Of a DNA stretch of 64,000 nt, positions 27,265 to 57,994 are shown one piece after another (positions within the stretch are counted from its first letter, which is position 1; every line of letters begins with the position of its first letter). The translations under genes were made by a program, and so were the position numbers. This DNA is from Sphingomonas sanxanigenens DSM 19645 = NX02. GTDB taxonomy: Bacteria > Pseudomonadota > Alphaproteobacteria > Sphingomonadales > Sphingomonadaceae. The DNA lies in NCBI RefSeq assembly GCF_000512205.2, contig NZ_CP006644.1, forward strand, positions 4,974,501-5,038,500. Reading direction: 5' to 3'. The notes below the pieces were generated by a model that did no database searches, was not told the origin of the DNA, and saw nothing but the letters and a program-made list of their open reading frames with translations.

Positions 27265-28243
27265 GCCGCGTCTCCTGCAAGGCCCGCCAGCACGGCACTG
27301 ATCGTCCGCCGCGCGAGTTCGATCTTGAAGCCGTTATGGGCCAGCGGCACCGCCTGGCCGAGTTCCGCCTCGGCGGCCGCCTCGAACAGCGCCGGCGTCG
27401 CCTTCTCACCGCGCAGGCGCGCCTCCGCTGCGGCGGCGCGCCACGGCTTGTGCGCGACGCCGCCCAGCGCCAGCCGCACGTCGCGGATCGTGTCGTCGGC
27501 ATCGAGATCGAGCGCGGCGGCCACCGAGACGAGCGCGAAGGCATAGCTCGCCCGGTCGCGCACCTTGCGATAGGCAGAGCGCGTCGCGAAGGGCAGCGAC
27601 GGCACCTCGACGGCGATGATCAACTCTCCCGGCCGCAATGCGGTTTCCTGCCCCGGCGTGTCGCCGGGAAGGCGGTGGAAATCATCGAACGGCAGGCTGC
27701 GGGCACCGTCGGGCCCGTCGAGATGCACCGTTGCGCCGAGGGCGGCGAGCGCCACGCACATGTCCGACGGATGCGTCGCGACGCAGGCCGACGACGCGCC
27801 GAGGATCGCGTTGACGCGGTTGAAGCCCGCGATTGCGTCGCAGCCGGCGCCGGCCGCCCGCTTGTTGCAGGCGGCGGCATCGTCATAGAAATAGAGGCAA
27901 CGGGTGCGCTGGAGGATGTTGCCGCCCACCGTCGCCATGTTGCGGATCTGCGCGGAGGCGCCGGCGAGGATCGCACGGGCAAGCAGGGGGTAGCGCGTGC
28001 GCACGCGATGATCGCCGGCGACGGCGCTGTTCTTCGCCGCCGCACCGATCAGCAGCCCGCCATCGGCGGTGTCGGCAATATCGGCGGAAAGGCCGGTGAC
28101 GTCGACCAGCCGGTCCGGAGCCTCGATTCCCTCGCGCATCAGATCGACGAGATTGGTGCCGCCGCCGAGATATTTGGCGCCGGCGATCGCACCCTGGCGG
28201 ATGGCGGCCGTGGTGTCGGCGGCGCGGTCGTAACTGAAGGGTG

Positions 28244-28247
<4 letters not shown>
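27261..28247 (-). CDS. FAD-binding subunit of molybdenum hydroxylase with extra Fe-S motif (PaoB-like)
   Basis: This 328-residue medium subunit has the FAD-binding AKYLGGGTNLVDLM near residue 24 and MATVGGNILQRTRCLYFYDD near residue 105. After that a Cys-rich insert (CLYFYDDAAACNKRAAGAGC) matches the extra 4Fe-4S site described for E. coli PaoB. That points to the periplasmic aldehyde oxidoreductase branch, although no export signal is seen here. It overlaps both neighbouring genes by four bases. Confidence 0.88.
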
Positions 28248-28762
<515 letters not shown>

Positions 28763-28955
28763 GAATTCGCCTCCGCCGTGACGGACGCCTGCCGAAGGCG
28801 CCGCAGATGGAAACACCGTGCGATCGAATTGGGTCCCCAAGTGCCGCGCATGGTCCGTCGATATGCTGTATGACAGATTTGCAGGAATCCTCGCGAAATC
28901 GGCCAAAGACCGCGCGATTTTCTTGAACTTGCCAGACAGATTATCTAGCCTCCGC

Positions 28956-28967
28956 GTTAGCGCTACC
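28956..28967. promoter_or_regulatory. LacI-family-like operator palindrome
   Basis: GTTAGCGCTACC contains the perfect 8-bp palindrome TAGCGCTA, the type of site bound by LacI/GalR regulators. It lies about 80 bases before the oxidoreductase start and 190 before the divergent molybdenum-enzyme operon. A half-match (GTTAGCGCTCGC) occurs at 39968-39979 before the second beta-helix gene. No LacI-type regulator is encoded in the window. Confidence 0.35.
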
Positions 28968-29043
28968 GCCGTACCGGTCGCGACGATCAAGGATGCCGCA
29001 ACGGCACTGGCGGACACGCGGATCCTATAGGGGAGGAAGACGG

Positions 29044-30153
29044 ATGGATTTCGATCGACGCGACATCCTGTTGTCGGCCGCGGCGGCTTTGGTCGCCGGG
29101 TCGAGCGGCGCGGCACGGGCGGCCACCGGGCGGCCGTTCGGCTACGCGATCGTCGGCCTCGGCCAATACGGCCTCAAGACGATCATCCCGCAATTCGCGA
29201 ACTGCGCGCACAGCCGGCTGGCGGCGGTGGTCAGCGGCGATCCCGCGAAGGCCGCGCGCGTCGCGGCCGAACATGGCCTGCCCGCGAGCGCAATCTATTC
29301 CTACGAGACGTTCGACACCATCCGGAACAACCCGGACGTCGACATCGTCTATGTCTGCCTGCCCAATTCGATGCATGCCGAATACACGATCCGCGCCGCG
29401 CGCGCGGGCAAGCATGTGATGTGCGAGAAGCCGATGGCGATTTCGGTCGCCGAGTGCGAGGCGATGATCGCGGCATGCAAGACGGCGAAGCGCAAGCTGA
29501 TGATCGGCTATCGCTGCCATTTCGAGGCCACCAATCTGGAAGCGATTCGGCTGGCTTCGAGCGGCGCGATCGGCAAGCTGCGCTACGTTCGATCCGAACA
29601 TGGCTTCGTGATGCGCGATCCGTCGCTCTGGCGGCTGAAGCGGGCGCTTTCCGGTGGGGGGTCGCTGATGGATATCGGCATCTATGCGCTGCAGGCCTCG
29701 CGCTACCTGACCGGCGAGGAGCCGGTCGCCGTGTATGCGCGGGAATCGACGGATCGCAGCGATCCGCGCTTCACCGAGGTGGAGGACATGATCGACTTCA
29801 CGCTGGAATTCCCATCCGGCGTGATGGCCGGCTGCTATTCGATGTACAGCGCCAACCAGAACCGCGTGCTGGTGATGGGCGACAAGGGCCGCGTCGAGCT
29901 GGAACCGGCGACCCGCTACGCAGGCAACCGGATGTGGACCGGGCGCGACGGGCGCGAGCAGGAAGTGACGCCGCCTGCCACCCCGCACAAGACCCAGTTC
30001 GCCGGGCAGCTCGACCATCTCGTGCAATGCGTGAGGACCGGCAACGAGCCGATCGTGTCGGGCGAGGAAGGGCTACGCGACATGCGGATCATCGAGGCGA
30101 TCTATCGATCCGCGCGCGAAGGGCGGCGGATCCAGCTGGGCGCCAAGGCATGA
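29044..30153 (+). CDS. Gfo/Idh/MocA family oxidoreductase, Tat-exported, glucose-fructose-oxidoreductase-like
   Basis: This 369-residue protein starts at an ATG with GGGGAGG upstream and has a twin-arginine leader (MDFDRRDILLSAAAALVA). The mature part opens with the Rossmann motif YAIVGLGQYG and has VCLPNSMHAEYTIRAARAGK, the catalytic-region MCEKPMAISVAEC and KLMIGYRCH, then GGGSLMDIGIY. These segments closely follow Zymomonas mobilis GFOR, which is also periplasmic and keeps NADP bound. Related Caulobacter enzymes oxidise aldoses to aldonolactones. A periplasmic sugar oxidation step is therefore likely. The preferred donor and acceptor sugars are not readable. It is coupled to the cupin gene by ATGA. 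Confidence 0.88.
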   Translation: MDFDRRDILLSAAAALVAGSSGAARAATGRPFGYAIVGLGQYGLKTIIPQFANCAHSRLAAVVSGDPAKAARVAAEHGLPASAIYSYETFDTIRNNPDVDIVYVCLPNSMHAEYTIRAARAGKHVMCEKPMAISVAECEAMIAACKTAKRKLMIGYRCHFEATNLEAIRLASSGAIGKLRYVRSEHGFVMRDPSLWRLKRALSGGGSLMDIGIYALQASRYLTGEEPVAVYARESTDRSDPRFTEVEDMIDFTLEFPSGVMAGCYSMYSANQNRVLVMGDKGRVELEPATRYAGNRMWTGRDGREQEVTPPATPHKTQFAGQLDHLVQCVRTGNEPIVSGEEGLRDMRIIEAIYRSAREGRRIQLGAKA

Positions 30154-30617
30154 TCGCGCGCGTCGCCGCCGCGGCGCTGCTGGCGCTTGCCCTCCCGGCC
30201 GCCGCGCAGGCACCGGCCGGTTTCGCCCCATCTGCCGAGGTCCGCGAGAAGGTGGCGGCGATGGCGCAGGCGATGAAGCCCGATCAGGGGTTCATCGCCC
30301 AGCCCCTGGTCGGTGACGGCAAGACCGTCGCCGCGCTGGAATATTGGCGCAAGCCCGGGCGGCCGGCGGTGCATCCCGACGAAGCCGAATATGCGATCGT
30401 CGTCGAGGGCGCGGGCACGCTGATCATGGGCGGCACGCTGGTCGATCCCGTGGTGCGGCGGCCGGGGCTGACCGAGGGCAGCCGGATCGAGGGCGGCACG
30501 ACCCACAGGCTTGCCCCTGGCGACGTCATGCTGATCCCGGCGGGCGCGCCGCACTGGTTCGGAATCGAGGACACCCACCTGGTGCTGCTGGGAATCAAGC
30601 TGCCGAAGGGTCCCTGA
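30150..30617 (+). CDS. Exported cupin-domain protein
   Basis: This 155-residue protein has a signal peptide (MIARVAAAALLALALPAAAQA) and a single cupin barrel with motif 1 HPDEAEYAIVVEGAGTL and motif 2 HRLAPGDVMLIPAGAPHWFG. The His residues could hold one metal ion. Its ATG overlaps the oxidoreductase stop (ATGA), so the two are co-translated and probably act together in the periplasm, for example on a sugar or acid intermediate. The reaction is unknown. Confidence 0.82.
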   Translation: MIARVAAAALLALALPAAAQAPAGFAPSAEVREKVAAMAQAMKPDQGFIAQPLVGDGKTVAALEYWRKPGRPAVHPDEAEYAIVVEGAGTLIMGGTLVDPVVRRPGLTEGSRIEGGTTHRLAPGDVMLIPAGAPHWFGIEDTHLVLLGIKLPKGP

Positions 30618-30637: not shown

Positions 30638-33600
30638 TCAGGGCATGCGCCATGCATAGAGCCCGTGATGCGCCAGCACATACAGCGTCTTGCGGTCGGC
30701 GCCGCCGAACAGGATCTGCAGCGGGCGTTCGGGCACGTCGATGCGGCCGACTTCCTTGCCGTCCGCCGCATAGACGAACACCTGCCCGTTCGCGACATAG
30801 ACGCGGCCGGCACCATCGCTCGCCACACCCTCGCCGCCGCGTTCGGCAAAAGGCTTGAGCCCGGTCACCGTGCCGCCCGCGCCGACAACACCGCTATAGG
30901 TGCGGTTCTCCGAGCCGTTGGTCAGATAGACGCGCTCGCCCGGCTTGCCCTGGATGAAGCCATAGCTGTCGAGCGGGTCCGAGAAGCGCCGCCCGCGATG
31001 GTCGGACGGCCCCTGCGCGAACACACGCCATGCCGGCAGCACCAGCGATCCATCCGGCGAGGCATATTCCTGCGCCTTGGGCAGCGCCATATCGCGCGCG
31101 AACATCTCTGCGAGGGTGGTGAACCGATAGGTCGCGGGATCGAGCTGATCCTTGAACTCGCCATTGTTCCACCAGTTGACCGGCAGCACCGTCGCCGCGC
31201 CCGCGCGGGGCGCCACCGGAGTCGGCGCGATCACCGTAACCTGGGTGTCGGGCGCGTCGGGGGTGACGCTGTAGACCGTGCCGCGGCGCCCGAACGAGGA
31301 CAGCACCAGCAGATTGCCTGACGCGTCGATCGTCAGGTTGACCGGATCGAGCGTGGCATCGCGCACGATCTCGAGCTTGCGCTCCTCGGACCAGCGCCAG
31401 ATGCGCTGGAAGTGGCGGTCGATGAAATAGAGCCGGCCCTGCGCGTCCACCGCGCCGCCGCCGATCGAATAGAAGCCATCCGCCAACCGCTCGACCTTGC
31501 CGTCGAGATAGCTGACCGGCGCTACCGGTTCGGGCTTCGCGGCCACGTCGAGCACCGCGAACTCGCGCTCGCGCACGTCGAGCCCGCTGGTGACGTCGCG
31601 GATCGCGTTCTCGAACGGGAATTTGGTCAGCCGCAGGAAGGTGGCGCAGCCATTCTCGTCGCAGGTGCCGAGTCCGCTCTCGCCGTTCACATGGACGTTG
31701 CGAAAGCGGATATCCTGCGAATTGTAGAGCGTGACCGCCGCGGGCGCCGGCTTGCGGGTGCGGGTGACGCGATAGCCATGGAAGTTGGCGACGAGGATGT
31801 TGCGCGAGTTGCGGATCTCCAGCGCCACCGCATCGCCGCTTTCACCCCCCTCGCCTTCGGTCTGCGGCGCCAGCAATTCCCAGTTGGCGACGCGGTTGAG
31901 GCCGATCTCGGTGCGGACATGATGTTCGACCGAGGCCTGGATGATCCGGCCCGGCGTCTCGGTGTCCGAAATCAGGATGCCGGGATGGCCGAAGGTGCTG
32001 GGACTCCAGACATTGGCGAAGGTGCCGCCGCCGCCGTCGGTTACCCACAGGCTGGCATATTGCCCGTCCCAGCGCTTCGCCGCATCGGGATCGCCGGTGC
32101 CATTGTTGTTGTAGGGCATCGTCCGGCTGCCGTCGAACAGGTTGGTGCCGTGGCCGCCCTGGAACTTGACGTCGTTGACCATCGAACCGGCGCCGGCCTT
32201 CCACAGCAGCGCTGTCGCGCGCGGATTGATGCCATTGGTGTTGAGCCCGACGCCGGCGACGATCGCATCGCCCCCCTTCGCGCTCTCGACCAGGGCCTTC
32301 GGCGCGCCGACGCCCTGGAAGCCGGGCGTGCCATCGGGCAGCGAGATCTGTGTCAGGCTGGGGTGGAGCCCCACCAGCACCGTGTCCGGCCGCAGCCGCA
32401 GCGTGTCGCTGACCTTGTAGAAGCCGGCGGGCAGATAGACGACGCGGTTGCCGTCGATCGCCTTCTGGATCGCGGCGGTATCGTCGGTCTTGTCGTCGCC
32501 CTTCGCACCGAGGCTGCGCACGCTCACCCAGTCCGACACCGGCGGCAGCGCGCGTATTGCCGGCGCGGACGGCGCGGACGGCGCGGGCAGCGCGGCGATG
32601 CGCTCGGCCTTCATCACGGTCCTGTAATCGCCGATGCGGCCGAGGCCGGGCAGGGTCAGGCCATGGGTGAAGGAGGCGACCTTGTAAGCCGCGCCGCTGC
32701 CCGCCACGGTCTTGCCGCTGTCCCGAAAGCGCGCGAACACCGGGGTGTTGGCGGCGACGACATTCTGGAAGCCGACCTGCGTGTAGACATTCGTCTCGTT
32801 GGAGATGATCACGCCCGCCTTCGACACATTCTCGAAGCGGATATCCTGCCCCCACAGCCAGTCGCCGTAGCCGCGGTCGATCTCGATGCCGACGGGGGTG
32901 TTGCGGATCGCGACGTTGACGAGCGTCAGCCCCGCCTCATGCTCGCGGATCGCGGCGTCGCGCTGCCCCTCGAAGGTCGCATCGACCAGCGCGAACGGCC
33001 AGGCGGGCGAAGGCTTCTCGGCGAGGATGCCATAGCGGCCGCCGCGGAAATGCAGATCCTCCGCCTCGTTCGCGACATGGTAGAGCCCGGCGAGCCCAGA
33101 GCCGATATCGAAATCGACATGGCTGACGAAGCTGTGCTGCGCGGAATGGAAACGGATCGCGGTGGCGGCCGCATTGCCTTCGAGTATGCGGAAATCGATA
33201 TTGCCCAGCGCCGAATAGAAGGTTCCCGGGTTGGCGTCGGGAACATCCTTGTTGAACGGCACGCTGCCCGGCGGCGGGAAGGCCACGGGCCGCGCATCCT
33301 TGGGGTCGCGTTCGCGCCGGGCGCCCGCGAAGATCAGCATGTGCGCGACGCCGCGCTGGAAGCCGGGCGTGTTGCGGCCGAGCAGGATCACCGGGCGCTG
33401 CTCGCCGATGCCGAAGATGCGCACGCCGGGCCACAGGAAGATCGTGCGGGTGATCCGATAGGTCCCCGCGGGCAGGAAGACGATGCCGCCGCCGCCCTTT
33501 TCCGCCGCCTTGTCGATCGCCGCCTGGATCGCGGCGCTATCATCGGCGCGGCCGTCGCCAACACCCGCCACCTTGACCGCCGCCGGCTCGTCGGGCGCGG

Positions 33601-33691
33601 TGCGGTAGACGGACGGGGACGCATAAGCGGTTCCCGCCGCCGCCAGAAACAGCAGCACCGAGGCACAGGCTCCACTCAATCCGCGATACAT
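30638..33691 (-). CDS. Exported tandem beta-helix (pectate-lyase superfamily/GH55-like) protein fused to a gluconolactonase-like propeller
   Basis: This 1017-residue protein has a signal peptide (MYRGLSGACASVLLFLAAA). The first Pectate_lyase_3-type domain starts near residue 35 (GVGDGRADDSAAIQAAI, then GIVFLPAGTYRITRT). A second starts near residue 385 (SLGAKGDDKTDDTAAIQKAI, YLPAGFYKVSDTL). Two such helices in tandem is the architecture of GH55 exo-beta-1,3-glucanases. From about residue 730 there are SMP-30/gluconolactonase-like strands (GGGAVDAQGRLYFIDRHFQRIWRW, GRVYVANGQVFVYA). The start at 33691 is chosen because the signal peptide begins there. It lies directly downstream of the TonB receptor. 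Substrate and catalytic residues are not certain. Confidence 0.72.
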   Translation of the reverse strand: MYRGLSGACASVLLFLAAAGTAYASPSVYRTAPDEPAAVKVAGVGDGRADDSAAIQAAIDKAAEKGGGGIVFLPAGTYRITRTIFLWPGVRIFGIGEQRPVILLGRNTPGFQRGVAHMLIFAGARRERDPKDARPVAFPPPGSVPFNKDVPDANPGTFYSALGNIDFRILEGNAAATAIRFHSAQHSFVSHVDFDIGSGLAGLYHVANEAEDLHFRGGRYGILAEKPSPAWPFALVDATFEGQRDAAIREHEAGLTLVNVAIRNTPVGIEIDRGYGDWLWGQDIRFENVSKAGVIISNETNVYTQVGFQNVVAANTPVFARFRDSGKTVAGSGAAYKVASFTHGLTLPGLGRIGDYRTVMKAERIAALPAPSAPSAPAIRALPPVSDWVSVRSLGAKGDDKTDDTAAIQKAIDGNRVVYLPAGFYKVSDTLRLRPDTVLVGLHPSLTQISLPDGTPGFQGVGAPKALVESAKGGDAIVAGVGLNTNGINPRATALLWKAGAGSMVNDVKFQGGHGTNLFDGSRTMPYNNNGTGDPDAAKRWDGQYASLWVTDGGGGTFANVWSPSTFGHPGILISDTETPGRIIQASVEHHVRTEIGLNRVANWELLAPQTEGEGGESGDAVALEIRNSRNILVANFHGYRVTRTRKPAPAAVTLYNSQDIRFRNVHVNGESGLGTCDENGCATFLRLTKFPFENAIRDVTSGLDVREREFAVLDVAAKPEPVAPVSYLDGKVERLADGFYSIGGGAVDAQGRLYFIDRHFQRIWRWSEERKLEIVRDATLDPVNLTIDASGNLLVLSSFGRRGTVYSVTPDAPDTQVTVIAPTPVAPRAGAATVLPVNWWNNGEFKDQLDPATYRFTTLAEMFARDMALPKAQEYASPDGSLVLPAWRVFAQGPSDHRGRRFSDPLDSYGFIQGKPGERVYLTNGSENRTYSGVVGAGGTVTGLKPFAERGGEGVASDGAGRVYVANGQVFVYAADGKEVGRIDVPERPLQILFGGADRKTLYVLAHHGLYAWRMP

Positions 33692-33710
33692 GCAGTTACT
33701 CCGGCAGACC

Positions 33711-33742
33711 AAACAAATGTCCCGGCCGGTGAGGGCCGGGAC
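33711..33742 (-). terminator. Hairpin between TonB receptor and downstream beta-helix gene
   Basis: A perfect 9-bp stem (GTCCCGGCC, 33719-33727, with GGCCGGGAC, 33734-33742; 6-nt loop) is followed on the minus strand by the U-rich ATTTGTTT. It could terminate or attenuate transcription from the receptor into the next gene, or stabilise the upstream message. Confidence 0.45.
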
Positions 33743-33791
33743 GAGGTGGGGGGAGGGGACTGGGAATGGGGGTGATCGATCCGATGATGCC

Positions 33792-36770
33792 TCAGAAGCT
33801 GAAGCGAAGGCCTGCGCGATACGTCCGCCCCAGCGTGTCGTAGAGCGCCGGGTTCACGTCGAGGCCGGTGTTGGTCTGCGGGCTCGCCTCCGGATCGCGA
33901 TCGAACAGATTGTCGACCTTGAAGTAGAAGCGCACCTGCTCGTTGAGGTTGTAGGAGCCGCCGATATCGACATAGAAGGCGCCCTTCATGCGATTATAGT
34001 CGATCGTCGGATTGTTCTGGGTCGATGCCGGGCAGCTTCCCGCCTGGCATTCGATATACTGGTTGCCGAAGGTGCCGCTGGAGAACCAGCGTTCCTGCAC
34101 GGTGAAGCTGAACTGGTCGTTCTCGTAGGTCTGGATCGCCAGCCACTTCCAGTCGGGCGTCGCGCCGGTGTTGTTGCCGGCAGTATCGACCGGGATGGTG
34201 CCGGGAATGCCGGGGTCGGTCACGAACTTGCGGACATGGGTGGCGAGGGCACGCACGGTCAGCGACCCGTCCAGCCCCAGCGGCCTGCGCCACTGATAGC
34301 TCGCCTCGATGTCGAAGCCGTCGGTCTTGATCGAGGCGAGGTTGAACGACTGGACGTTGACGAACTTGAAATCGCTGTCGAGGTCGAAGGCGCCGCAGGT
34401 GGAGGTAATGCCTTCGAGGAAACAGAGGTTGACGATCTGCTGCGCCGACAGGCTGGAGATCACCCCCTCGAGCTTGATCTTGTAATAGTCGAAGGAAAGG
34501 CTGAATCCCGGCAGCCAGGGCGGATTGGAGAGCACCGCGCCGACTTCGGTGTTGCGCGCGATCTCGGGCCGCAGGTCGGGGTTGCCGACCGTGTTCTGGA
34601 TGATCAGCACCTGCTGACCGCTGCCGCGCGGGTCGGTAAAGTTGGGAACGGTGGTCGTCACCGGCGCGGCGAACAGCTCGGAAAGGTTGGGCGCCCGAAC
34701 GTCGCGCGACGTCACCGCGCGCAGGCGGAACCCGTCGAGCGGCGTATCCCAGGTGCCGCCCACCTTCCACGACCAGACCGTGCCGGAGGTGCTGTAATCA
34801 GTCACGCGCGCCGCGCCGTTGATGTTGGCGCGCCCTGCGCCTTCTGAGTCGATCAGCGGGACATCGACCTCGACGAAGCCTTCGACCACCTCATATCGGC
34901 CGCGGCCATTCTTGTAGTTGCCGGCATACCAGTTGCTGCCATCCACCGCGTTGAGCAGCGGGTCCGCGGGATATTCGGCGCTGTTGGGGCTCGCATCCAT
35001 CACGCCCGCGCCATAGGGATCGGCGTTGACCCGATAATATTCGCGGCGATATTCGCCACCGAACGCCACCGACAACGGCCCCGCCCACAGTTCGAAGGGT
35101 GAGCCCGAGATGTTGAGGCTGGCAACATCCTGCGTCTGCTTGGTGTGCTGGAACGGGCCGTTCTCGGGGGTGATATAGGCGAGCGCCGCCGTCGACGGGA
35201 TGTTGTTGCCGAAGATGTTGATCGGCGCGCAACCATTGGCCCGCGCCACCGGATCGCGACAGACGATCTCGCCGTTCAGCCGGATCGCGTCCGCCGCCTG
35301 GTTGTAGCGGCGGTTGAGCATGATGTTCTCGACATCGATGTCGGTGATGTTGATGCCATGCTCATAATAGGCGTCGTAGTTCCAGTTGCTCGCGATCTTG
35401 CCCTTGGCACCCGCGACGAAGCGATACTGCCTGCGGTTGGTGTAAACCTGGATGTTGGGCAGGATCGCGTTGCTCAGGCCATAGCGGAAGTTGGTGATGC
35501 CCGCGGTCGCGCAGGCCGTCGCAACCGATTCCGGCAGGTAGGGATTGCTGCACTGGACGGTCAGGTCGGTGCGCGCGGCACCCGGGTTGGGCTGGTTGTT
35601 GGTCTTCACCCGCGCGATGTTGACGGTCGCATAGAGTTCATTGTCCGGCGCGAACTCATAGGCGATGCGGGTAAAGCCGTTGATGCGCTCCAGCGCGGAC
35701 TGCAGCGAGGTGCCCGAGCCGACATGCCCGGACATGTCGCCGCCGACGCAGAAGCCGACGAAGCAGCCATTGACGTTGCCGGCTGCATTGCGCGCCGGCG
35801 TGCCGTTGGAGCCGTACGCGAAATTATAGGGATTCCCAGCGGCATCGAACGCGATGCCCTGCAGCGGCCCCGTGTTGATCAGGCCATATTTGGCATATTG
35901 ATAGGGCTGGCCGAAATCGCGGTACAGATATTGCGGGTTGTTGCTGTTGAGCACGCCGGTGTTGACGAGCGTCGTCGCGCGATACCAGTCGCGATCCCCG
36001 GCAAGGTCGGTGCCGAAATTGCCCGGCCCCACGCCTTCCTCATGATCATATTCGCCGCTGACGATCACATGCAGCCGGCCGAAGGACTTGCCCCAGGCAC
36101 CCTGGATCAGGACCTGCTGATTGTCCTTATAGTCGGTGATGCCGCCCTGGATGTTGCCCTTGAAGCCTTCGAACTTGGTGTTGGTGATGAAGTTGACGAC
36201 ACCGCCCACCGCATCCGATCCGTAGGAGGCCGAGGCGCCGCCCGTCACCACGTCGACGCGCTGGATCAGCAGTTGCGGGAACAGGCTGATATCGGGCACG
36301 CCGGTGACGTTGGCGCCGACCACGCGCTGGCCGTCGAGCAGGGTCAGCGTGCGGATCGTGCCGAGGCCGCGCAGCGAGAAGGAGCTGAGGCCCTGCTGGC
36401 CGCTCGACGTGCTGAACGTACCCGTGGCGGCGCCGGTCGAGCCCTGCAGCGAGGGCAGCTGCGCGATCGTGTTGAAAATGTTGGGCTGCGCATTGTTGGC
36501 GATCTGCTCGGCCCCGATCACGGTGGTCGGCGTCGGCGCGTTGAATCCGCTCGTGGTGATGCGCGATCCGGTGACGATGATGTCGGCATTTTGCCGTTCC
36601 TGCGCCCCCGTATCGGGCGCCTCGTCGGCAACCGTCACCGTGTCGGTCTGCTGCGGAGCCGGCGCGGGCGCCTCCTGCGCATGCGCCGCGCCGCTGAATG
36701 TGATCGCTATCAATGCCGCGAAGCTGACACCTGCAAGATGTCGGCAGGTTCCGATCGTCGCCTTCATCAT
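33792..36770 (-). CDS. TonB-dependent receptor (carbohydrate-type, CUT locus)
   Basis: This 992-residue outer-membrane receptor has a signal peptide (MMKATIGTCRHLAG, hydrophobic core, GAAHAQ) and the TonB-box-like DIIVTGSRI near residue 65. The plug has LLDGQRVVG and VDVVTGGASASYGSDAVGGVVNF. The large barrel ends in an aromatic terminus (RAGLRFSF). Size and plug motifs match sphingomonad/Caulobacter receptors for plant-derived oligosaccharides rather than siderophore receptors. It is flanked by two paralogous beta-helix proteins, so it probably imports their oligomeric products. The ATG at 36770 has AAGGGG upstream; an adjacent ATG at 36767 is equally possible. Confidence 0.88.
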   Translation of the reverse strand: MMKATIGTCRHLAGVSFAALIAITFSGAAHAQEAPAPAPQQTDTVTVADEAPDTGAQERQNADIIVTGSRITTSGFNAPTPTTVIGAEQIANNAQPNIFNTIAQLPSLQGSTGAATGTFSTSSGQQGLSSFSLRGLGTIRTLTLLDGQRVVGANVTGVPDISLFPQLLIQRVDVVTGGASASYGSDAVGGVVNFITNTKFEGFKGNIQGGITDYKDNQQVLIQGAWGKSFGRLHVIVSGEYDHEEGVGPGNFGTDLAGDRDWYRATTLVNTGVLNSNNPQYLYRDFGQPYQYAKYGLINTGPLQGIAFDAAGNPYNFAYGSNGTPARNAAGNVNGCFVGFCVGGDMSGHVGSGTSLQSALERINGFTRIAYEFAPDNELYATVNIARVKTNNQPNPGAARTDLTVQCSNPYLPESVATACATAGITNFRYGLSNAILPNIQVYTNRRQYRFVAGAKGKIASNWNYDAYYEHGINITDIDVENIMLNRRYNQAADAIRLNGEIVCRDPVARANGCAPINIFGNNIPSTAALAYITPENGPFQHTKQTQDVASLNISGSPFELWAGPLSVAFGGEYRREYYRVNADPYGAGVMDASPNSAEYPADPLLNAVDGSNWYAGNYKNGRGRYEVVEGFVEVDVPLIDSEGAGRANINGAARVTDYSTSGTVWSWKVGGTWDTPLDGFRLRAVTSRDVRAPNLSELFAAPVTTTVPNFTDPRGSGQQVLIIQNTVGNPDLRPEIARNTEVGAVLSNPPWLPGFSLSFDYYKIKLEGVISSLSAQQIVNLCFLEGITSTCGAFDLDSDFKFVNVQSFNLASIKTDGFDIEASYQWRRPLGLDGSLTVRALATHVRKFVTDPGIPGTIPVDTAGNNTGATPDWKWLAIQTYENDQFSFTVQERWFSSGTFGNQYIECQAGSCPASTQNNPTIDYNRMKGAFYVDIGGSYNLNEQVRFYFKVDNLFDRDPEASPQTNTGLDVNPALYDTLGRTYRAGLRFSF

Positions 36771-36842
36771 CCATCCCCTTCTTTTGTTTGACGGCTGCGC
36801 CCGGTGCCTTGCCATGCCCCATAGCGAGCGTTTCGTTGTAAG

Positions 36843-36873
36843 ATTATCGCGCGGACCGACGCGCCGCATGCAA
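36843..36873 (-). promoter_or_regulatory. Candidate promoter of the TonB receptor gene
   Basis: On the minus strand GATAAT (36848-36843) is a 5/6 match to the -10 consensus. TTGCAT (36873-36868) lies 19 bases upstream, with a wide spacer and a weak -35. It would give a leader of about 65 bases before the ATG. Confidence 0.35.
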
Positions 36874-36890
36874 GACAATGGTCGTAGTCG
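36874..36890 (-). promoter_or_regulatory. Shared upstream motif, copy 1 (before TonB receptor)
   Basis: GACAATGGTCGTAGTCG (plus-strand reading) matches GACGATGGTCGTAATTC at 40009-40025 at 13 of 17 positions. In both places, 17-19 bases downstream on the minus strand, the sequence CCGCGCGAT follows. The TGGT half resembles FadR-class GntR operators (TGGTNNNACCA), and a GntR/FadR regulator is encoded at 40659-41336. Confidence 0.4.
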
Positions 36891-36911
36891 TCCGCGACCG
36901 TAGCGGTGAGC

Positions 36912-39900
36912 TCAAGGCCGGGCCGAATACAGCGCGTGGTGCGTCAAGATGAACAAGGTGCGGCCACCGGCTCCGCCGAACAGAATCTGCAGCGGCCGTT
37001 CGGGAACATCGATCCGCCCCACTTCCTTGCCGTTCGGATCATAGACGAACACCTGCCCGTTCGCGACATAGACGCGCCCCTGCCCATCCACCGCGACGCT
37101 TTCTCCACCTCGGTTGGCGAAGCGCTTCAGGTCGGTCAACGTGCCACCGGGGCCGACCTTGCCGCTATAGGTGACGTTCTCGGAACCGTTGGTGACGAAC
37201 AGCCGCTCGCCCGGCTTCGCGCCGACCAGGCCGTTGGCGTTCAGCCCATCCGACCAGCGCCAGCCGACATGATCGATCGGCCCCTGCTGCCAGACGCGGA
37301 ACGCGGGCAGCGAGAGGCTGCCATCGGGCGAGACATATTCCTGCGCCTTGGGCGTGCCGACATCGCGCGCGAACATCTCGGCAAGCGTCGTGAACTCATA
37401 GGTCTTGTGATCGAGCTGGTCGCGGAATTCGCCATTGTTCCACCAGTTGACCGGCAGCAGCGTCGTCGCCGCGGCAGCGCCGCGCGCCGGCGTCGGCGGG
37501 ATCAATGTGATCTTGTCCTGTGGCGCGGCCGGATCGAAGGAATAGACCCCGCCCTTGGGACCGAGCGACGACAGCACCAGCAGATGGCCTGAGGCATCGA
37601 CCGCGAGGTTGACCGGATCGAGCGCATGATCGCGCACGATCTCCAGCCCCTTGCCCTCGGTCCAGCGGTGGATGCGCTGGAAGCGGCGATCGATGAAGTA
37701 GAGCGCGCCGGCGGCGTCGACCGCGGCGCCCGAGATCGACCAGAAACCATCCTCCAGCTTGCTCACCCTCGCGCTGCTGGCGGGAGGCGGCGCGATGCGA
37801 CGGTCTGCGGCACCGATGTCGAGGCTGGCAAACTCGCGCTCGCGGACGAACAGCTTGCGCGTCACATCCTCGATCGCATTGTCGAACGGATATTTGCTCG
37901 CGCGCAGGAACGTGCCGCAGCCCTCGTCGTCGCAGGTGGCGTAGCCGCTTTCGGCGTTGATGTGGACGTTGCGGAAGCGGATGTCGCTGGAATTGATCAG
38001 CTTCACCGCGCTTTCCGCCGGGGCATAGCTGCGCGTCACGCGATAGCCGTGATAATTGGCGAACAGCAGGTTGCGCGAATTGCGGATCTCCAGCGACACC
38101 GCATTGGGGCCGTCGCCCACTTCCTGCTCGGTCTGCGGCGCCAGAAATTCCCAGTTCTGGACATTGTCGAGCACGAACTCGTTGCGCGCGTGGTGCTCGA
38201 CCGACATCTCGTAGACATGGCCGGGCGTGCTGGTGTCGGTGATGTAGAAGCCGGCCTGCGCGAAGGTGTTGGGGCTCCACACATCGGCGAAGGTGCCGCC
38301 GCCGCCATCCGTCACCCAGATGCTGGGATATTGCGCGTCCCACCGCCCATCCGACACCGGATCGCCGCTGCGCGCGGAAAGCGATCCCAGCGGCTTGCCG
38401 TCCGAGGTCGGCGTGCCGCCGCCACCCATGATCTTCACGTCTTCCACAAGGCTGGTCTCGCCCGATCGCCACAGCAGGGCGGCGGCGCGCGGGTTGATGC
38501 GACCGGTGAACAGGCCGAGGCCGGAGAGGATGTTGTCGCCGCCGCGCGGCGTTTCGAGGATCGGCAGCACCGCGCCGAGCCCGGCATGGTTCGGGTTGCC
38601 GTCCGGGATGTAGAGCTGCGTCAGCGCGGGGTGCAGGCCGATCAGCACCGTATCCGGCCGCAGGGTCAGCCGATCGGTCACCTTGTAGAAGCCGGCCGGG
38701 AAATAGAGGATGCGCTGGCCGTCGATCGCCTTCTGGATGGCGGCCGTATCGTCGGTCTTGCCATCGCCCACCACGCCCAGCGACTTCACATTCACCCATT
38801 GCGCCATCGCCGGCAGATCGCGGATCGCCGGCGTGCGCGGCGCGGGCATGGCGGGCAGCGCTTCGATCTTCGCTTCCGTGGCGTAGCTGCCGGTGTGGCC
38901 GAGATCGGGGATGGCGAGGCCATAGGAGAAGGAGGAGACCTTGTAGGCGCGCCCCTTGCCGGAGATCGTCTTGCCGCTGTCGCGGAAGCGCGCGAACACC
39001 GGGCTGTTGCTGGCCAGCGCATTCTCGAAGCCGACCTGGGTGAAGACGTTGTTCTCGTTGGAGATGATGACGGCCGCCTTCGAGACATTCTCGAAGCGCA
39101 CATCCTTGCCCCACAGCGAGTCGCCGTAGCCGCGATCGATCTCGATCCCCACCGGCGTGTCGCGGATGCTGACATTGACCAATGTCAGGTCCACCTCATG
39201 CTCGCGGATCGCAGCATCGCGCTGCCCGTCGAAGCTGGAATCGAGCAAGGTGAACTGCCAGGCGGGCGAGGTCTTCTCGGTGACGATGCCGTAGCGGCCG
39301 CCATGGAAATGGACATTCTCGATGACGTTGCCGGATTGATAGACGCCGGCGAAGGCCGATCCCAGGCGGAAGTCCATGTGACTGAGAAAGGCATGCTGCG
39401 CCATGCGGAAGCGCACGCCTGCGGCGGCGGGATTGCCCGCGCCGATCTCGATGTCGACATTGCTCATGGACGAATAGAAGGTGCCCGAATTGGCGTCGCG
39501 CACCACCTTGTCGCGCGGCACCACCGTCGGCACCGGCACCGGCACCTGCCCGACATTGTACTGGTCGCCGCCGGCGAAGACGATCATCGTCGATACGCCC
39601 TGCTGAAAACCGGGCGTGTTGGGCGCGAGCAGGATCACCGGACGCTTCTGGCCCACGCCATAGACGCGAACGCCGGCTGGCACCGTCAGGGTGCGGGTGA
39701 TGCGATAGGTGCCGGCGGGCAGGAAGACGATGCCGTGGCCGGTTGCGTCCCGCGCCTCGTTGAACGCCTGCTGCAACGCCTCGCTATCATCGCTGCGGCC
39801 GTCGCCCCGCGCCTTCACGGTCACGGCACGCGGCTCGTCGGGCGCCACGGGAAACACCGACTCTCCAGCCGCCCATGCGGGTCCGCCGCCACCGAGCGCG

Positions 39901-39941
39901 GTTGCCGCCAGCAGCGCCGCCATCATGCTGCGTGCCATCAT
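36912..39941 (-). CDS. Second exported tandem beta-helix protein with gluconolactonase-like propeller (paralogue)
   Basis: This 1009-residue paralogue of the 30638-33691 product is aligned along its whole length. It has a signal peptide (MMARSMMAALLAATALGG), a first domain with ARGDGRSDDSEALQQAF and IVFLPAGTYRITRTL, and a second near residue 380 with LGVVGDGKTDDTAAIQKAI. The C-terminal propeller runs from about residue 725 (GAAVDAAGALYFIDRRFQ), and both end with a VPERPLQILFGGA segment. The ATG at 39941 is preferred to 39956 because GGGAGAG sits six bases before it. The two proteins may split the work on one polymer (different linkages or chain ends). Activity is untested. Confidence 0.72.
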   Translation of the reverse strand: MMARSMMAALLAATALGGGGPAWAAGESVFPVAPDEPRAVTVKARGDGRSDDSEALQQAFNEARDATGHGIVFLPAGTYRITRTLTVPAGVRVYGVGQKRPVILLAPNTPGFQQGVSTMIVFAGGDQYNVGQVPVPVPTVVPRDKVVRDANSGTFYSSMSNVDIEIGAGNPAAAGVRFRMAQHAFLSHMDFRLGSAFAGVYQSGNVIENVHFHGGRYGIVTEKTSPAWQFTLLDSSFDGQRDAAIREHEVDLTLVNVSIRDTPVGIEIDRGYGDSLWGKDVRFENVSKAAVIISNENNVFTQVGFENALASNSPVFARFRDSGKTISGKGRAYKVSSFSYGLAIPDLGHTGSYATEAKIEALPAMPAPRTPAIRDLPAMAQWVNVKSLGVVGDGKTDDTAAIQKAIDGQRILYFPAGFYKVTDRLTLRPDTVLIGLHPALTQLYIPDGNPNHAGLGAVLPILETPRGGDNILSGLGLFTGRINPRAAALLWRSGETSLVEDVKIMGGGGTPTSDGKPLGSLSARSGDPVSDGRWDAQYPSIWVTDGGGGTFADVWSPNTFAQAGFYITDTSTPGHVYEMSVEHHARNEFVLDNVQNWEFLAPQTEQEVGDGPNAVSLEIRNSRNLLFANYHGYRVTRSYAPAESAVKLINSSDIRFRNVHINAESGYATCDDEGCGTFLRASKYPFDNAIEDVTRKLFVREREFASLDIGAADRRIAPPPASSARVSKLEDGFWSISGAAVDAAGALYFIDRRFQRIHRWTEGKGLEIVRDHALDPVNLAVDASGHLLVLSSLGPKGGVYSFDPAAPQDKITLIPPTPARGAAAATTLLPVNWWNNGEFRDQLDHKTYEFTTLAEMFARDVGTPKAQEYVSPDGSLSLPAFRVWQQGPIDHVGWRWSDGLNANGLVGAKPGERLFVTNGSENVTYSGKVGPGGTLTDLKRFANRGGESVAVDGQGRVYVANGQVFVYDPNGKEVGRIDVPERPLQILFGGAGGRTLFILTHHALYSARP

Positions 39942-40008
39942 CGCGTTCTCTCCCATGTTGTCGCACCGTTAGCGCTCGCTAGATCGCGCGGCCCGCTTTG
40001 GCACGCGC

Positions 40009-40070: not shown

Positions 40071-40649
40071 ATGCTTGCTTGGTTCAGGCCATCGCTCGTC
40101 TGCGAGGACGCACTCTTGTCATCACCCGCCGATCAGATCGACGCACAACCTTTTGCCGTTATCGTCATGGGCGTCAGCGGCTGCGGCAAATCGACGCTCG
40201 GCGCGCTGCTGGCCGCCGAACTCAATTGCCCCTTCCTCGAAGGGGACAGCTTCCATTCGGACGATGCGGTGGAAAAGATGCGCGGCGGCCGCGCGCTGAC
40301 CGACGAGGATCGCTGGCCCTGGCTCGACCGGCTGGGCGCCGCTGCCGCGGCGGCGGTTGCCGAACACGGCGTGGTCGTCACAGCCTGCTCGGCGCTGCGC
40401 AAGGCCTATCGCGACCGGCTCCGCGCCGCGATCGGCGATCCGGTGCGCTTCATCCTGCTCGACAACAGCCGCGACCAGATTCTCGCGCGCCTTGCCAACC
40501 GCCCCGGCCATTATATGCCGCCAAGCCTGCTCGACAGCCAGTTGGCGACGCTCGAACGGCCGCTGGCGGAAGAGGGGGTGCTGATCCTCGAGACCAATGC
40601 GGAGCCCGATGCGCTGCGCGATGCGGCGCTGGGATGGGTGCGGGGGTAG
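40071..40649 (+). CDS. gntK: Gluconokinase
   Basis: This enzyme phosphorylates D-gluconate to 6-phosphogluconate, the entry to the Entner-Doudoroff pathway. The 192-residue protein has the P-loop GVSGCGKS (residues 34-41), then FLEGDSFHSDDAVEKMRGGRALTDEDRWPWL, and VVTACSALRKAYRDRLR, all typical of GntK. The N-terminal 27 residues precede the usual core. A TTG at 40116 is an alternative start. Its position among gluconate permease, GntR regulator and the sugar-oxidation genes supports the call. Confidence 0.93.
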   Translation: MLAWFRPSLVCEDALLSSPADQIDAQPFAVIVMGVSGCGKSTLGALLAAELNCPFLEGDSFHSDDAVEKMRGGRALTDEDRWPWLDRLGAAAAAAVAEHGVVVTACSALRKAYRDRLRAAIGDPVRFILLDNSRDQILARLANRPGHYMPPSLLDSQLATLERPLAEEGVLILETNAEPDALRDAALGWVRG

Positions 40650-40658: not shown

Positions 40659-41336
40659 CTACGGCATCAGCCGCCGCCGGCCTTCCCACAAATGCCAGCG
40701 CATCGCGAGCGCCGCGCCTTCCGGATCCTGCGCGCGGATCGCATCGACGATTACTTCATGCTCGCCCAGCATCGTCGCGATCACTTCGGGCGGCCGGGAT
40801 CGGGAGATGTCGACGCCGGCGCGCATGATCCGCTCGATGTCCGATCGCAGCGCGTCGAACACCAGCAGGAAGGCCGGATTGCCCGTCGCCTTGGCGATGC
40901 GACGGTGCAATTCCATATCCTCCGCGTGCGCCGGCGCGCTGGAGAGCAAGGCCGCGCGCAGCAGCGCCAGCCCTTCCTCGACATGCGCCATCTCCACCGC
41001 GGTGCGGCGGATGGCGGCGAGGCGCGCCGCTTCCGCCTCAAGCACGAAGCGCACCTCATAGCTGCCCAAAGTGGTCGGCAGTTCGGCGAGCGGCATGAAG
41101 GCGGCCAGCCGGTCCGACGGCCGGCTCTTGACGAAGGAACCGGCGCCGCGCCGCGCCTCGGTGATGCCGTCCGCGGCGAGGCGGACCAGCGCCTCGCGGA
41201 CGATCGCGCGGGATACGCCGAACATCTCCGCCAGCCCCGCTTCGGAGGGCAGGCGCGCGCCGACCTCCAGCGCCTCCGCCTTTATGATCTCGACGATGCC
41301 GGCATAGACCTGATCGGAAAGCCGCGCCTGGCTCAT
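40659..41336 (-). CDS. GntR/FadR-subfamily transcriptional regulator
   Basis: This 225-residue regulator has an N-terminal winged helix (LPSEAGLAEMFGVSRAIVREALVRLAADGI, about residues 29-58) and an all-helical FCD ligand domain (ELHRRIAKATGNPAFLLVFD, LGEHEVIVDAIRAQDPEGAALAM). FCD domains usually sense small carboxylates such as gluconate or hexuronates. GGGAG precedes the ATG at 41336. It follows the gluconate permease gene by 41 bases on the same strand and probably controls the locus, perhaps through the TGGT-containing motifs. Confidence 0.9.
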   Translation of the reverse strand: MSQARLSDQVYAGIVEIIKAEALEVGARLPSEAGLAEMFGVSRAIVREALVRLAADGITEARRGAGSFVKSRPSDRLAAFMPLAELPTTLGSYEVRFVLEAEAARLAAIRRTAVEMAHVEEGLALLRAALLSSAPAHAEDMELHRRIAKATGNPAFLLVFDALRSDIERIMRAGVDISRSRPPEVIATMLGEHEVIVDAIRAQDPEGAALAMRWHLWEGRRRLMP

Positions 41337-41377
41337 CGCGCTCCCTTTCCCATCGCTCGCCTCATCGCCTTGCCATG

Positions 41378-42724
41378 TTAGAAGATGCTGCTCGCCACAA
41401 GCACCAACAGCAGGCCGACCACCGCAACGACGGTTTCCATGATCGACCAGGTCTTGAAGGTGCCGGGCATGTCGGTGCCGAGATAGGACTTGACCAGCCA
41501 GAAGCCGGGATCGTTGACGTGCGAGAAGAAGAGCGAGCCCGCGCCGATCGCCAGCACCATCCATTCCGGGGCGACGCCCGATGTCGCGACCAGCCCCTGC
41601 ATCACGCCCGCAGTGGTGATCGTCGCCACGGTCGCCGATCCCGTCGCAAGCCGGATGCACACCGATACGCCCCAGGCAAGCAGCAGCGGCGAGATCGCGC
41701 CGCCCGCCGCCACCCGCACCAGCATGTCGGAGAGACCGGCGGAGACCAGCACCTGCTTCAGCGCACCGCCGGCGCCGATCGCCAGCAGAATGCCGCCCGC
41801 CGGGGCCATCGCCTCCGTCCAGATCGCGTTCTGGATCTCGCGATCGGCGATACGGCGGCCGAACAACAGCGGCAGCGCAGCCAGCACGGCGATAAGCAGG
41901 GCGATGACGGGATCGCTGACCCAGGCCAGCCACTGGAAATAGACCGCGACATCGGGCGGCAGCATCGCCACCGCCTGGCCGGCGGCGATCAGCACCACCG
42001 GCAGCAGCACCGCGGTCAGCGCCCGGCCGACCGACGGGGTCGCGACGTCGACCTTCGCCGGTTCGAGCAGCGGGGGGCTGAGCTTGACGCCGGGGGCGGT
42101 GAAGCGCGCGAGCAGCGGCCCCGCGATGATCGCGGTCGGGATGCCGACGATCAGGCCGTAGAACAAGGTCAGCCCCAGGCTTGCGCCGAGCGCGTCGACC
42201 GCGAGGAGCGGGCCGGGATGCGGCGGCACCAGCGCATGGACCACCGACAGGCCGGCGAGCGCGGGCAGCATCAGCCGCAGCTTGGCGGCATCGTCGTTCT
42301 GACCGCTGGGCAGCGCCGCGGCGGCGGAGGCGACGATCGGCAGCAGCAGCACCAACCCGGTCTCGAAGAACAGCGGCAGGCCGATCAGCAGTGCGGTGAA
42401 CAGACTTGCCCACGGCGCGCCGCGCACACCGGACAGGCGCAGGGCCGAGCGGGCGAGGCCGCCGGCACCATCGGACAATTGCAGCATGGCGCCGAGGCCG
42501 AGGCCGAGCGCGACCACGAGCCCGGTGCCGCCCAATATGGCGCCGGCGCCTTTCTCCACCGCATCGGCGGTCTCCGTCATCGGGATGCCCGCAAGGACGC
42601 CGACGGTGAAGGCGCCGCACAACAAGCCGACGAACGGATGGAGCCGGATGCGGATAATCAGGAAGATCGAAAGCGCGATGCCCGCGATGGCGGCCAGGAC
42701 CAGCCGATAATCCTCCGCCGTCAT
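41378..42724 (-). CDS. GntP family gluconate:H+ symporter
   Basis: This 448-residue inner-membrane transporter has about 12-13 helices. GntP-family segments include HPFVGLLCGAFTVGVLAGIP near residue 30, the signature PPHPGPLLAVDALGASLG near residue 170 and SGVAPEWMVLAIGAGSLFFSHVNDPGFWLVKSYLG near residue 385. It would carry gluconate (or a related aldonate) into the cytoplasm for GntK. It is first in a two-gene unit with the GntR regulator. Confidence 0.92.
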   Translation of the reverse strand: MTAEDYRLVLAAIAGIALSIFLIIRIRLHPFVGLLCGAFTVGVLAGIPMTETADAVEKGAGAILGGTGLVVALGLGLGAMLQLSDGAGGLARSALRLSGVRGAPWASLFTALLIGLPLFFETGLVLLLPIVASAAAALPSGQNDDAAKLRLMLPALAGLSVVHALVPPHPGPLLAVDALGASLGLTLFYGLIVGIPTAIIAGPLLARFTAPGVKLSPPLLEPAKVDVATPSVGRALTAVLLPVVLIAAGQAVAMLPPDVAVYFQWLAWVSDPVIALLIAVLAALPLLFGRRIADREIQNAIWTEAMAPAGGILLAIGAGGALKQVLVSAGLSDMLVRVAAGGAISPLLLAWGVSVCIRLATGSATVATITTAGVMQGLVATSGVAPEWMVLAIGAGSLFFSHVNDPGFWLVKSYLGTDMPGTFKTWSIMETVVAVVGLLLVLVASSIF

Positions 42725-44226: not shown

Positions 44227-44865
44227 ATGCCAGGTCCAGCCGGTTTCGAAATTTCACGCCGCGGCGTTCTCGTCGCGGGTACAGCCACGGTCGCGCTCGG
44301 CGCGACACCCGCCGAAAGCCAGGCGCCGGCCTCTGCCGCCGCCGCCGCGCCGCCATCCATGCCCGTGGCGCTTACGGTGAACGGCGAACGCCGCGAGCTG
44401 ACGGTCGACACGCGGACGACCCTGCTCGATGCGCTGCGGGAGCATCTGAAGCTCACCGGCACCAAGAAGGGCTGTGACCATGGCCAGTGCGGCGCCTGCA
44501 CGGTGATCGTCAACGGCCAGCGGATCAATTCCTGCCTCAGCCTCGCGCTCCAGCACCAGGGCGACGAGGTGACGACGATCGAGGGGCTCGGCACACCCGG
44601 GAAGCTCCATCCGATGCAGGCGGCCTTCATCAAGCATGACGGCTACCAGTGCGGCTATTGCACCCCCGGCCAGATCTGTTCGGCGGTGGCGGTGCTCGAC
44701 GAGATCCGTGCGGGCGTGCCGAGCCATGTCCAGGCGGACGTCGCCGCGCGCCCCGGCTTCACCAACATCGAGATGCGCGAGCGGATGAGCGGCAACATCT
44801 GCCGCTGCGGCGCCTATTCCAACATTGCCGAGGCGATGGCCGAGGTTGCGGGAGAGCAGGCATGA
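44227..44865 (+). CDS. paoA: Aldehyde oxidoreductase [2Fe-2S] subunit with Tat signal (PaoA-like)
   Basis: This 212-residue protein has a twin-arginine leader ([19 protein letters not shown]) that would carry the folded complex to the periplasm. The ferredoxin cluster [15 protein letters not shown] and helical-domain Cys in [12 protein letters not shown] and CRCGAYSN follow. Layout and leader match E. coli PaoA (YagT), the small subunit of periplasmic aromatic aldehyde oxidoreductase. It is the first gene of a four-gene unit and overlaps the next start. Confidence 0.88.
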
Positions 44866-45812
44866 AATCCTTCACCTACGAACGCGCGACTTCCCCCGCG
44901 CAGGCCGCGGCGGCGGTAGCGGGCCGCACCGGCGCGAAGTTCCTCGCCGGCGGCACCAACCTGCTCGACCTGATGAAGCTTGAGATCGAGACGCCGACGC
45001 ATCTTGTCGACGTTCAGGATCTGAAACTCGACAAGATCGAGAAGACGCAGGAGGGCGGGCTGCGCATCGGCGCGCTCGTCACCAACACCGCGCTCGCCAG
45101 CGACGATCGCGTGCGGCGCGACTATGGCGTGCTGACCCGCGCGATCGTCGCGGGCGCCTCCGGCCAGTTGCGCAACAAGGCGACGACGGCGGGCAATCTG
45201 CTGCAGCGCACCCGTTGCCCCTATTTCTATGACACCAACCAGGCCTGCAACAAGCGCAAGCCGGGTTCGGGTTGCGCCGCCATCGGCGGCTTCTCCCGCC
45301 AGCTCGGCGTCGTCGGCACGTCCGACGCGTGCATCGCCACCTATCCCGGCGACATGGCGGTGGGGCTGCGGGTGCTCGACGCGATGGTCGAGACGGTGAA
45401 GCCCGACGGCGCGACGCGGGCAATCCCGATCGCCGATTTCCACCGCCTGCCGGGCGACACCCCGCAGCGCGACACCGTGCTGGACGCGGGCGAGTTGATC
45501 ACCGCGGTGACCTTGCCCAAGCCGATCGGCGGCACGCATCTCTATCACAAGGTGCGCGACCGGGCGTCCTACGCCTTCGCGCTCGTCTCCGTCGCGGCGG
45601 TGATCCAGAAGGACGGCAAGGGCCGCGTCGCCTTCGGCGGCGTCGCCCCGCGCCCCTGGCGCGTCGAGGCTGCGGAGACGGAGATGCCGAAGGGTGCCGC
45701 CGCCGTTGCCGCCCGTATGTTCGCGGGCGCCCGCCCCACCGAGGAAAACCGGTTCAAGATCACGCTGGCCGAGCGAACGCTCGCCTCGCTGATCGCCGAG
45801 GCGAGGAGCTGA
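44862..45812 (+). CDS. paoB: Aldehyde oxidoreductase FAD-binding subunit with extra 4Fe-4S motif (PaoB-like)
   Basis: This 316-residue protein has [17 protein letters not shown] and [19 protein letters not shown] for FAD binding. These are followed by the Cys set [20 protein letters not shown] that provides an additional 4Fe-4S cluster in PaoB. The ATG overlaps the small-subunit stop by four bases. It is about half identical by eye to the 27261-28247 product, so the two operons are paralogous. Confidence 0.88.
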
Positions 45813-45817
45813 TCGCC

Positions 45818-52688: not shown

Positions 52689-52767
52689 ACATTTTTTCGC
52701 AACGGCTGTCCCGATCGGCAACATTCGCCCGTCCCACCGGCGAACGACACATCGATCGGGGGTTACC

Positions 52768-56246: not shown

Positions 56247-56305
56247 TCGCGGCGGCGGACAAACAACCGGGTGGCGTTCAGCGCATCATAGGGGCGGCAT
56301 AGGGT

Positions 56306-57992: not shown

Positions 57993-57994
57993 GC

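Follow-up and report, generated by a model that had tools for sequence, protein, structure and literature searches.

The window analysed here, a 64,000-nucleotide stretch of Sphingomonas sanxanigenens DSM 19645 = NX02 (contig NZ_CP006644.1), carries two similar genes on the minus strand, each encoding a fusion of two beta-helices of the glycoside hydrolase family 55 (GH55) type with a C-terminal propeller resembling that of gluconolactonases, on either side of a gene for a TonB-dependent outer-membrane receptor. We refer to the two fusion proteins as the A- and B-type copies and use A-copy numbering for residues. The three genes are transcribed in the order A-type, receptor, B-type, with gaps of 33 and 79 bp, and therefore probably form an operon made up of the following parts:

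36912..39956, minus strand: A-type GH55-propeller fusion (P0002), 1014 residues, with a Sec-like signal peptide by eye; assigned by Pfam, alignment and an AlphaFold2 model
38844..39866, minus strand: A-type first beta-helix, residues about 31-371, carrying Q187 (matched to the GH55 relay Gln)
37812..38843, minus strand: A-type second beta-helix, residues about 372-715, carrying E587-H588 (GH55 Glu-480/His-481) and E610 (general acid Glu-502)
36912..37793, minus strand: gluconolactonase-like propeller at the A-type C-terminus, residues 722-1014; metal-ligand positions occupied by S742/N908/E952
33792..36878, minus strand: TonB-dependent outer-membrane receptor between the A- and B-type genes, with Pfam Plug and barrel matches
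30638..33712, minus strand: B-type GH55-propeller fusion (P0001), with E596-H597 and E619 conserved and G751/Y917/E961 at the propeller ligand positions

As claimed in the initial annotation, the two proteins flanking the receptor are similar along their length, with 622/989 aligned positions identical (63%, E = 0) and both reading frames open. The length of 1010 residues that it gave for each had to be corrected to 1014 for the A copy and to 1017 for the B copy, when the latter is read from the likelier ATG at 33691 (a TTG start would yield 1024). Both N-termini resemble Sec signal peptides by eye, and a pattern check found no lipobox in either protein. Both copies are matched by the Pfam families Pect-lyase_RHGA_epim (127.7 and 129.4 bits, cut-off 27) and SGL (43.2 and 47.5 bits, cut-off 26.3). 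An AlphaFold2 model of the A copy (36912-39956) has two beta-helices followed by a propeller (mean pLDDT 87.3, pTM 0.89), the domain order that had been proposed for both proteins; from the alignment, the B copy is expected to share this fold.

To describe the family, we collected 122 homologues (65 of the A type and 57 of the B type, with the window's two counted in) whose alignment to each of the two copies covers 950 residues or more, which makes them full length by construction; partial or broken copies in six loci (L017, L054, L055, L058, L066 and L072) were dropped before residues were counted. Of these proteins, 53 went into the sequence profile and the full-length model. When this profile was compared with the PDB, it recovered the GH55 chains 5m5z (E 5.7e-22), 3eqn (2e-16) and 8jhh (7.4e-9), with the gluconolactonase 3e5z (5.4e-9) ranked between them. 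The A-copy model superimposes on PcLam55A (3eqn) with a Z score of 32.3 (3.0 Å over 614 residues), on MnLam55A (8jhh) with 31.6 and on SacteLam55A (4pew) with 22.9, the last of which lies outside the 29 PDB sequence matches of the profile and was recovered by fold comparison only; the best non-GH55 beta-helix among the matches listed for the model reached 17.6. The match in fold indicates tandem right-handed beta-helices in the rib-cage arrangement of GH55, which bears out the earlier assignment to the GH55 type, and this pair of helices is common to the fusions and the GH55 beta-1,3-glucanases PcLam55A, CtLam55 (5m5z), MnLam55A and SacteLam55A.

The catalytic roles of the SacteLam55A and MnLam55A residues used below are those given in excerpts of PMC10637969, with which the MnLam55A numbering in our alignment agrees (E591, E614, Y617, W552, W554, D557). 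In the A copy, MnLam55A E614 corresponds to E610, E591-H592 to E587-H588, W554 to W547, D557 to D550 and Y617 to V613, while W552 aligns into an insertion. The general acid (Glu-502 in SacteLam55A, Glu-614 in MnLam55A), which is E610 in the A copy and E619 in the B copy, is invariant in 122/122 homologues; so is the pair equivalent to Glu-480/His-481, and the Trp aligned to MnLam55A Trp-554 is present in 121, with a gap in the remaining one. Q187, likewise invariant (122/122), falls at the position of the relay Gln-174 by alignment to PcLam55A and CtLam55, whose Gln at this place we take to be the relay residue. The fusions thus have the general acid Glu, the Glu-His pair, the relay Gln and one cleft Trp at places corresponding to those in the GH55 glucanases, and both copies are predicted to be exported GH55-type glycosidases.

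For the C-terminal domain, the full-length fold comparison did not separate gluconolactonases (Z 16.9) from NHL domains (16.8), and the propeller was therefore folded separately from an alignment of 34 sequences (pLDDT 88.4). The best matches of this model were the gluconolactonases 3e5z (Z 17.7) and 3dr2 (17.4), followed by the best NHL domain at 16.5, and the Pfam NHL family, listed for P0002 only, scored 12.2 bits (cut-off 20). The domain, an SGL-type propeller with six blades as judged from predicted strands, thus resembles gluconolactonases slightly more than it does NHL domains, by about 1.2 Z units only, in line with the SMP-30-like C-terminus proposed earlier. In addition, a propeller profile matches the separate gluconolactonases encoded in related loci (17 of 20 aligned) with E 7.5e-9.

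The metal ligands of the SMP30 family, which we take to be a Glu/Asn/Asp triad, are absent as a set from all the fused propellers (0/122). The blade-1 Glu, placed at S742 by HMMER and at I741 by hhalign, is an acid in neither column (0/122), and its column holds Ser, Gly or Ala in 122/122; the blade-4 column holds Asn, His, Tyr or Thr, with Asn in 38/122, all A-type; and the Asp column holds Glu in 121/122 and Asp once. In the 17 aligned separate gluconolactonases the same triad is invariant. The earlier proposal that catalytic residues be compared in both copies thus gave a divided answer, with those of GH55 largely present and the lactonase metal ligands missing, so that there is no support for the fused domain acting as a lactonase, and an ordinary gluconolactonase was rejected as its identity.

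The propeller is nevertheless strongly conserved. Columns that are at least 97% conserved make up 76/299 of the propeller, and 105/340 and 107/344 of the two helices. With blades assigned from predicted strands, three positions that probably face the pore, where blades 2, 3 and 5 end on the inside, hardly vary (N783 in 121/122, N837 in 118/122 and E952 as Glu in 121/122), and W839, N841, E843, F844 and D846 of a long insertion are kept in 122/122. Together with the absence of the triad, this conservation argues for a domain that is under constraint, yet is not a canonical gluconolactonase. The fused propeller shares its SGL-type fold with its best structural matches, the secreted SMP-30-family gluconolactonases (XC5397, 3dr2; and 3e5z), and unlike them lacks the triad and carries the conserved residues of the insertion. 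We infer that it descends from a gluconolactonase-type domain that lost its Glu/Asn/Asp metal site; in our view it has probably taken on a new purpose, as a module for docking or for binding a sugar or aldonate, and does not act as a gluconolactonase. An enzyme joined to a lactonase-type propeller is also found in Deinococcus, where a Cu/Zn superoxide dismutase is fused to a beta-propeller lactonase (excerpt of PMC12362111); the partner domain there is unrelated.

On both sides of the operon, the window carries genes that point to the metabolism of an oxidised sugar. Their conservation was assessed in other genomes in the best 80 of 113 relatives (70 loci), found with P0002 peptides as seeds, so that the counts favour close relatives; a gene was scored as present at 50% identity or more. 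As 15/70 loci are shorter than 18 kb, 'absent' refers to the stretch of locus at hand.

40071..40649, plus strand: gluconokinase of the GntK/IdnK type (TIGR01313, 169.2 bits, cut-off 113.75), divergent from the A-type gene at 114 bp
40659..41342, minus strand: regulator of the GntR superfamily, FadR/FCD kind; closest to the models NanR, LldR, UxuR and PdhR, all under their cut-offs; in 54/70 loci
41378..42724, minus strand: GntP-family gluconate:H+ symporter (TIGR00791, 359.9 bits, cut-off 292.75); in 32/70 loci
28993..30153, plus strand: oxidoreductase of the glucose-fructose/aldose-aldose oxidoreductase (GFOR/AAOR) type with an RR (Tat-like) leader; in 27/70 loci
30150..30617, plus strand: small secreted cupin-like protein downstream of the GFOR/AAOR-type gene (cupin by eye, no NCBIfam match); in 4/70 loci

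The gluconokinase is present in 65/70 loci, and in 65/65 of these it points away from the fusion/receptor operon, whose nearest gene lies at a distance of 72-382 bases; the TonB receptor is present in 63/70. The two paralogues, the receptor and the gluconate genes form a conserved cluster. A separate gluconolactonase is encoded in 20/70 loci, all 20 of which also have the GFOR-type gene; one of these gluconolactonases, when compared with the PDB, matched 3e5z (3.1e-37) and 3dr2 (1e-34). Twelve Caulobacter-type loci have the fusion genes next to each other, followed by the receptor. According to gene calls based on GC3 bias, which are rough, a LacI-type regulator occurs in 12 loci and a carrier of the major facilitator superfamily (MFS) in 10. 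Other neighbours include a ThuA-like protein (by eye) in 11 loci, of which one member (L009:19284-20057) lies directly downstream of a B-type gene and has no NCBIfam match, and a protein near the GH35 model (L022:1661-3376; 463.1 bits, cut-off 500). Further along the window, a plus-strand group at 52660-62039 comprises a TonB receptor with an STN domain (52660-55137), a PepSY_TM protein (55137-56246), a DUF1501 protein (57995-59152) and a VWA protein (60069-62039).

The protein encoded at 28993-30153 scores 458 bits against the Caulobacter aldose-aldose oxidoreductase 5a02 and 342.6 bits against the Zymomonas GFOR 1h6a, with the next other protein at 125.9 bits, which places it among the GFOR/AAOR enzymes of the Gfo/Idh fold. 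Its leader contains FDRRDILLSAAA by eye, which may point to export by the Tat pathway, and it is the genome's only close member of this group. No membrane pyrroloquinoline quinone (PQQ) glucose dehydrogenase and no LPMO_10 match were found in the same genome, and its two other gluconolactonase-type genes (L074 and L075) share no more than 34% identity, over part of their length, with the locus-linked ones, to which they are not closely related. Excerpts of PMC4052901 describe, for Caulobacter, a gnl-gfo operon as part of a predicted regulon, as well as predicted beta-glucoside regulators; unlike in the published Caulobacter and Zymomonas contexts, the GFOR/AAOR-type gene here is linked to a locus with GH55-type, TonB receptor and gluconokinase genes. 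Two sets of molybdenum hydroxylase genes also lie in the window: a PaoABC-type periplasmic aldehyde oxidase operon at 44227-48022 (plus strand), with PaoA and PaoC above their NCBIfam cut-offs, and, on the other side of the locus at 24973-29116 (minus strand), a second, more divergent set of the PaoABC kind (PaoC 605.8 bits, cut-off 1180).

In a tree of the 122 proteins, made by a quick method and rooted at the midpoint, the A- and B-type proteins separate with an SH-aLRT value of 99, apart from one unsure sequence. Each group holds both sphingomonads and Caulobacteraceae, the latter nested inside the former in both cases. The two types are therefore old paralogues, and the earlier suggestion that the gene was duplicated around the receptor does not hold for a recent local event. 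The pattern looks as if the A-type/B-type pair had moved together between lineages; vertical descent with losses may be an alternative. The unsure sequence comes from a metagenome bin of Acidobacteriaceae (L073) and is a fusion homologue of full length with 56% identity. It is A-type by best BLAST score and falls with the B group on a long branch, which makes its placement doubtful and means that the A/B label needs two changes on the tree, not one. Its 18.9 kb stretch contains no match to the gluconate genes, and it may reflect transfer or mis-binning. The family is uncommon in even genome samples, occurring in 3/398 genomes across the phylum, 15/298 in the family and 6/299 in the order of genome G351, counts that include the own genome or the sample centre; two matches only do not span the profile (G453, 5-564; G524, 127-1004).

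Taken together, these data lead us to a tentative reading, to which we give somewhat less than an even chance, of the locus as an outer-membrane and periplasmic route that takes a beta-glucan-type substrate to gluconate, with the propeller as a repurposed lactonase fold. The TonB receptor would serve the two flanking exported fusion proteins, whose GH55-type cutting would free glucose outside the cytoplasm; as their pockets differ, the two would probably handle different linkages or chain ends. The GFOR/AAOR-type enzyme, presumably periplasmic, would oxidise this glucose to gluconolactone, which would open spontaneously (a half-life of 45 min is given for glucono-1,5-lactone in the excerpt of PMC8529709) or, where present, with the help of the separate gluconolactonase; GntP, or in Caulobacter perhaps the MFS carrier, would import the gluconate, and GntK would phosphorylate it, presumably for the Entner-Doudoroff pathway. 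Since a beta-glucan-type hydrolase is tied to gluconate genes, oxidation outside the cytoplasm is the simplest account. The initial annotation had imagined a fusion that channels a freed and oxidised sugar: the link to an oxidised sugar finds support in the gluconokinase, permease and GFOR/AAOR neighbours, while channelling by a fused lactonase does not, given the missing triad.

Several observations weigh against this route. Unlike the GH55 glucanases, the fusions have, besides the C-terminal propeller, an altered pocket. At the position of Tyr-505, which orients the acid, no homologue has Tyr (0/122), the residue being Val in 64 and Ala in 1 of 65 A-type and Ala in 49 and Gly in 8 of 57 B-type proteins. 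Where Thr-149 would fall, judging from its distance to Phe-152, 64/65 A-type proteins have Ser and 43/57 B-type proteins have Pro. What we presume to be the position of the relay Ser-198, in a weakly aligned region, is Ala or Val in 121/122, the one Ser being that of the window's A copy. Asp-449 (D550) is kept in 62/65 A-type proteins and in 8/57 B-type ones, so that most B-type members lack it, the window's B copy being among those that have it. Among the subsite -1 and aromatic-block residues (Trp-444, Trp-446 and Asp-449 in SacteLam55A), one Trp, the partner of that aligned to MnLam55A Trp-554, is gone as well; as the Trp of subsite -1, excerpts of PMC10637969 name Trp-446 in SacteLam55A but Trp-552 in MnLam55A. 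Overall, the fusions retain the general acid and some of the residues that activate water, the others are changed, and the two paralogues are unlike in the pocket; judging by these residues, GH55-type activity could differ or be lost. In the neighbourhood, the GFOR gene lies outside the retrieved stretch in 43/70 loci, including 16/16 Caulobacter-type loci, and the Caulobacter MFS carrier that was scanned scores almost equally as an HpaX aromatic-acid permease (257.8 bits) and as a D-galactonate transporter (257.2 bits), both below cut-off. One strong homologue of soluble PQQ aldose dehydrogenase encoded elsewhere in the genome could perform the oxidation instead. Finally, the window contains no separate gluconolactonase.

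This last absence would be explained if the fused propeller were itself an active lactonase whose metal site has changed (N783, N837, N908 and E952 in A-type, N792, N846, Y917 and E961 in B-type proteins), cutting the glycoside and opening the aldonolactone in one molecule, an alternative that we regard as rather doubtful. The gluconolactonases as nearest structures and the almost invariant polar residues at the inner blade ends fit such an enzyme; the replacement of the blade-1 Glu, the restriction of the blade-4 Asn to some A-type members and the exchange of Asp for Glu speak against it, as do the separate gluconolactonases of 20 loci, with an intact triad in the 17 that were aligned. Moreover, among 52 long loci, Asn at position 908 has no evident relation to the presence of a separate gluconolactonase. 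It is more improbable still that the propeller is a plain, non-catalytic NHL- or Pizza-like scaffold and the neighbourhood a co-location without functional link: the small Z differences and the lost metal ligands would suit a scaffold, but SGL lies above its cut-off in both copies and NHL below its own, the propeller profile finds the locus-linked gluconolactonases, and the gluconokinase is retained across sphingomonads and Caulobacteraceae.

We consider it equally improbable that the substrate is itself a C1-oxidised oligosaccharide, for example a product of lytic oxygenases or of a GFOR-type enzyme acting on oligosaccharides, which would enter through the TonB receptor and from which the GH55-type domain would free gluconate directly. 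Such a substrate would agree with the gluconokinase, which is the partner found most consistently, even where a locus showed no GFOR, and with the lactonase-like propeller on the same chain. Against it, published exo-acting GH55 enzymes release glucose from non-reducing ends (excerpts of PMC10637969), and a supply by oxygenases of the organism's own was rejected for want of an LPMO_10 gene. Elements of these alternatives can be joined, in a combination that seems to us unlikely, into a two-step enzyme: its GH55-type half would cleave a beta-gluco-oligosaccharide, perhaps one oxidised at C1, and its propeller would use a rebuilt metal site to open or bind the aldonolactone. Such an enzyme would belong to a dedicated 'oxidise outside, import as gluconate' locus that moved as a unit between sphingomonads and Caulobacteraceae. 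To our knowledge, such a metal site would be unlike the Glu/Asn/Asp site of any SMP-30 lactonase, and the dedicated polysaccharide locus would unite both paralogues with the receptor, the GFOR-type oxidoreductase, the permease and the kinase.

In the literature searched, which covered titles and the beginnings of abstracts outside subscription papers, no paper describes the fusion or the locus. From these data emerges a group of GH55-like proteins that falls into two sub-types, carries a fused lactonase-type propeller with altered residues and offers specific positions for mutagenesis. Polysaccharide loci are usually read as cutting a substrate, importing the sugar and phosphorylating it; the conserved association of a beta-glucan-type hydrolase with gluconate genes points instead to oxidation before import. 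In light of this, oxidation before import would give a role to the GFOR/AAOR-type enzymes, the physiological function of which in Caulobacter was called currently unclear in the excerpt of PMC4628093.

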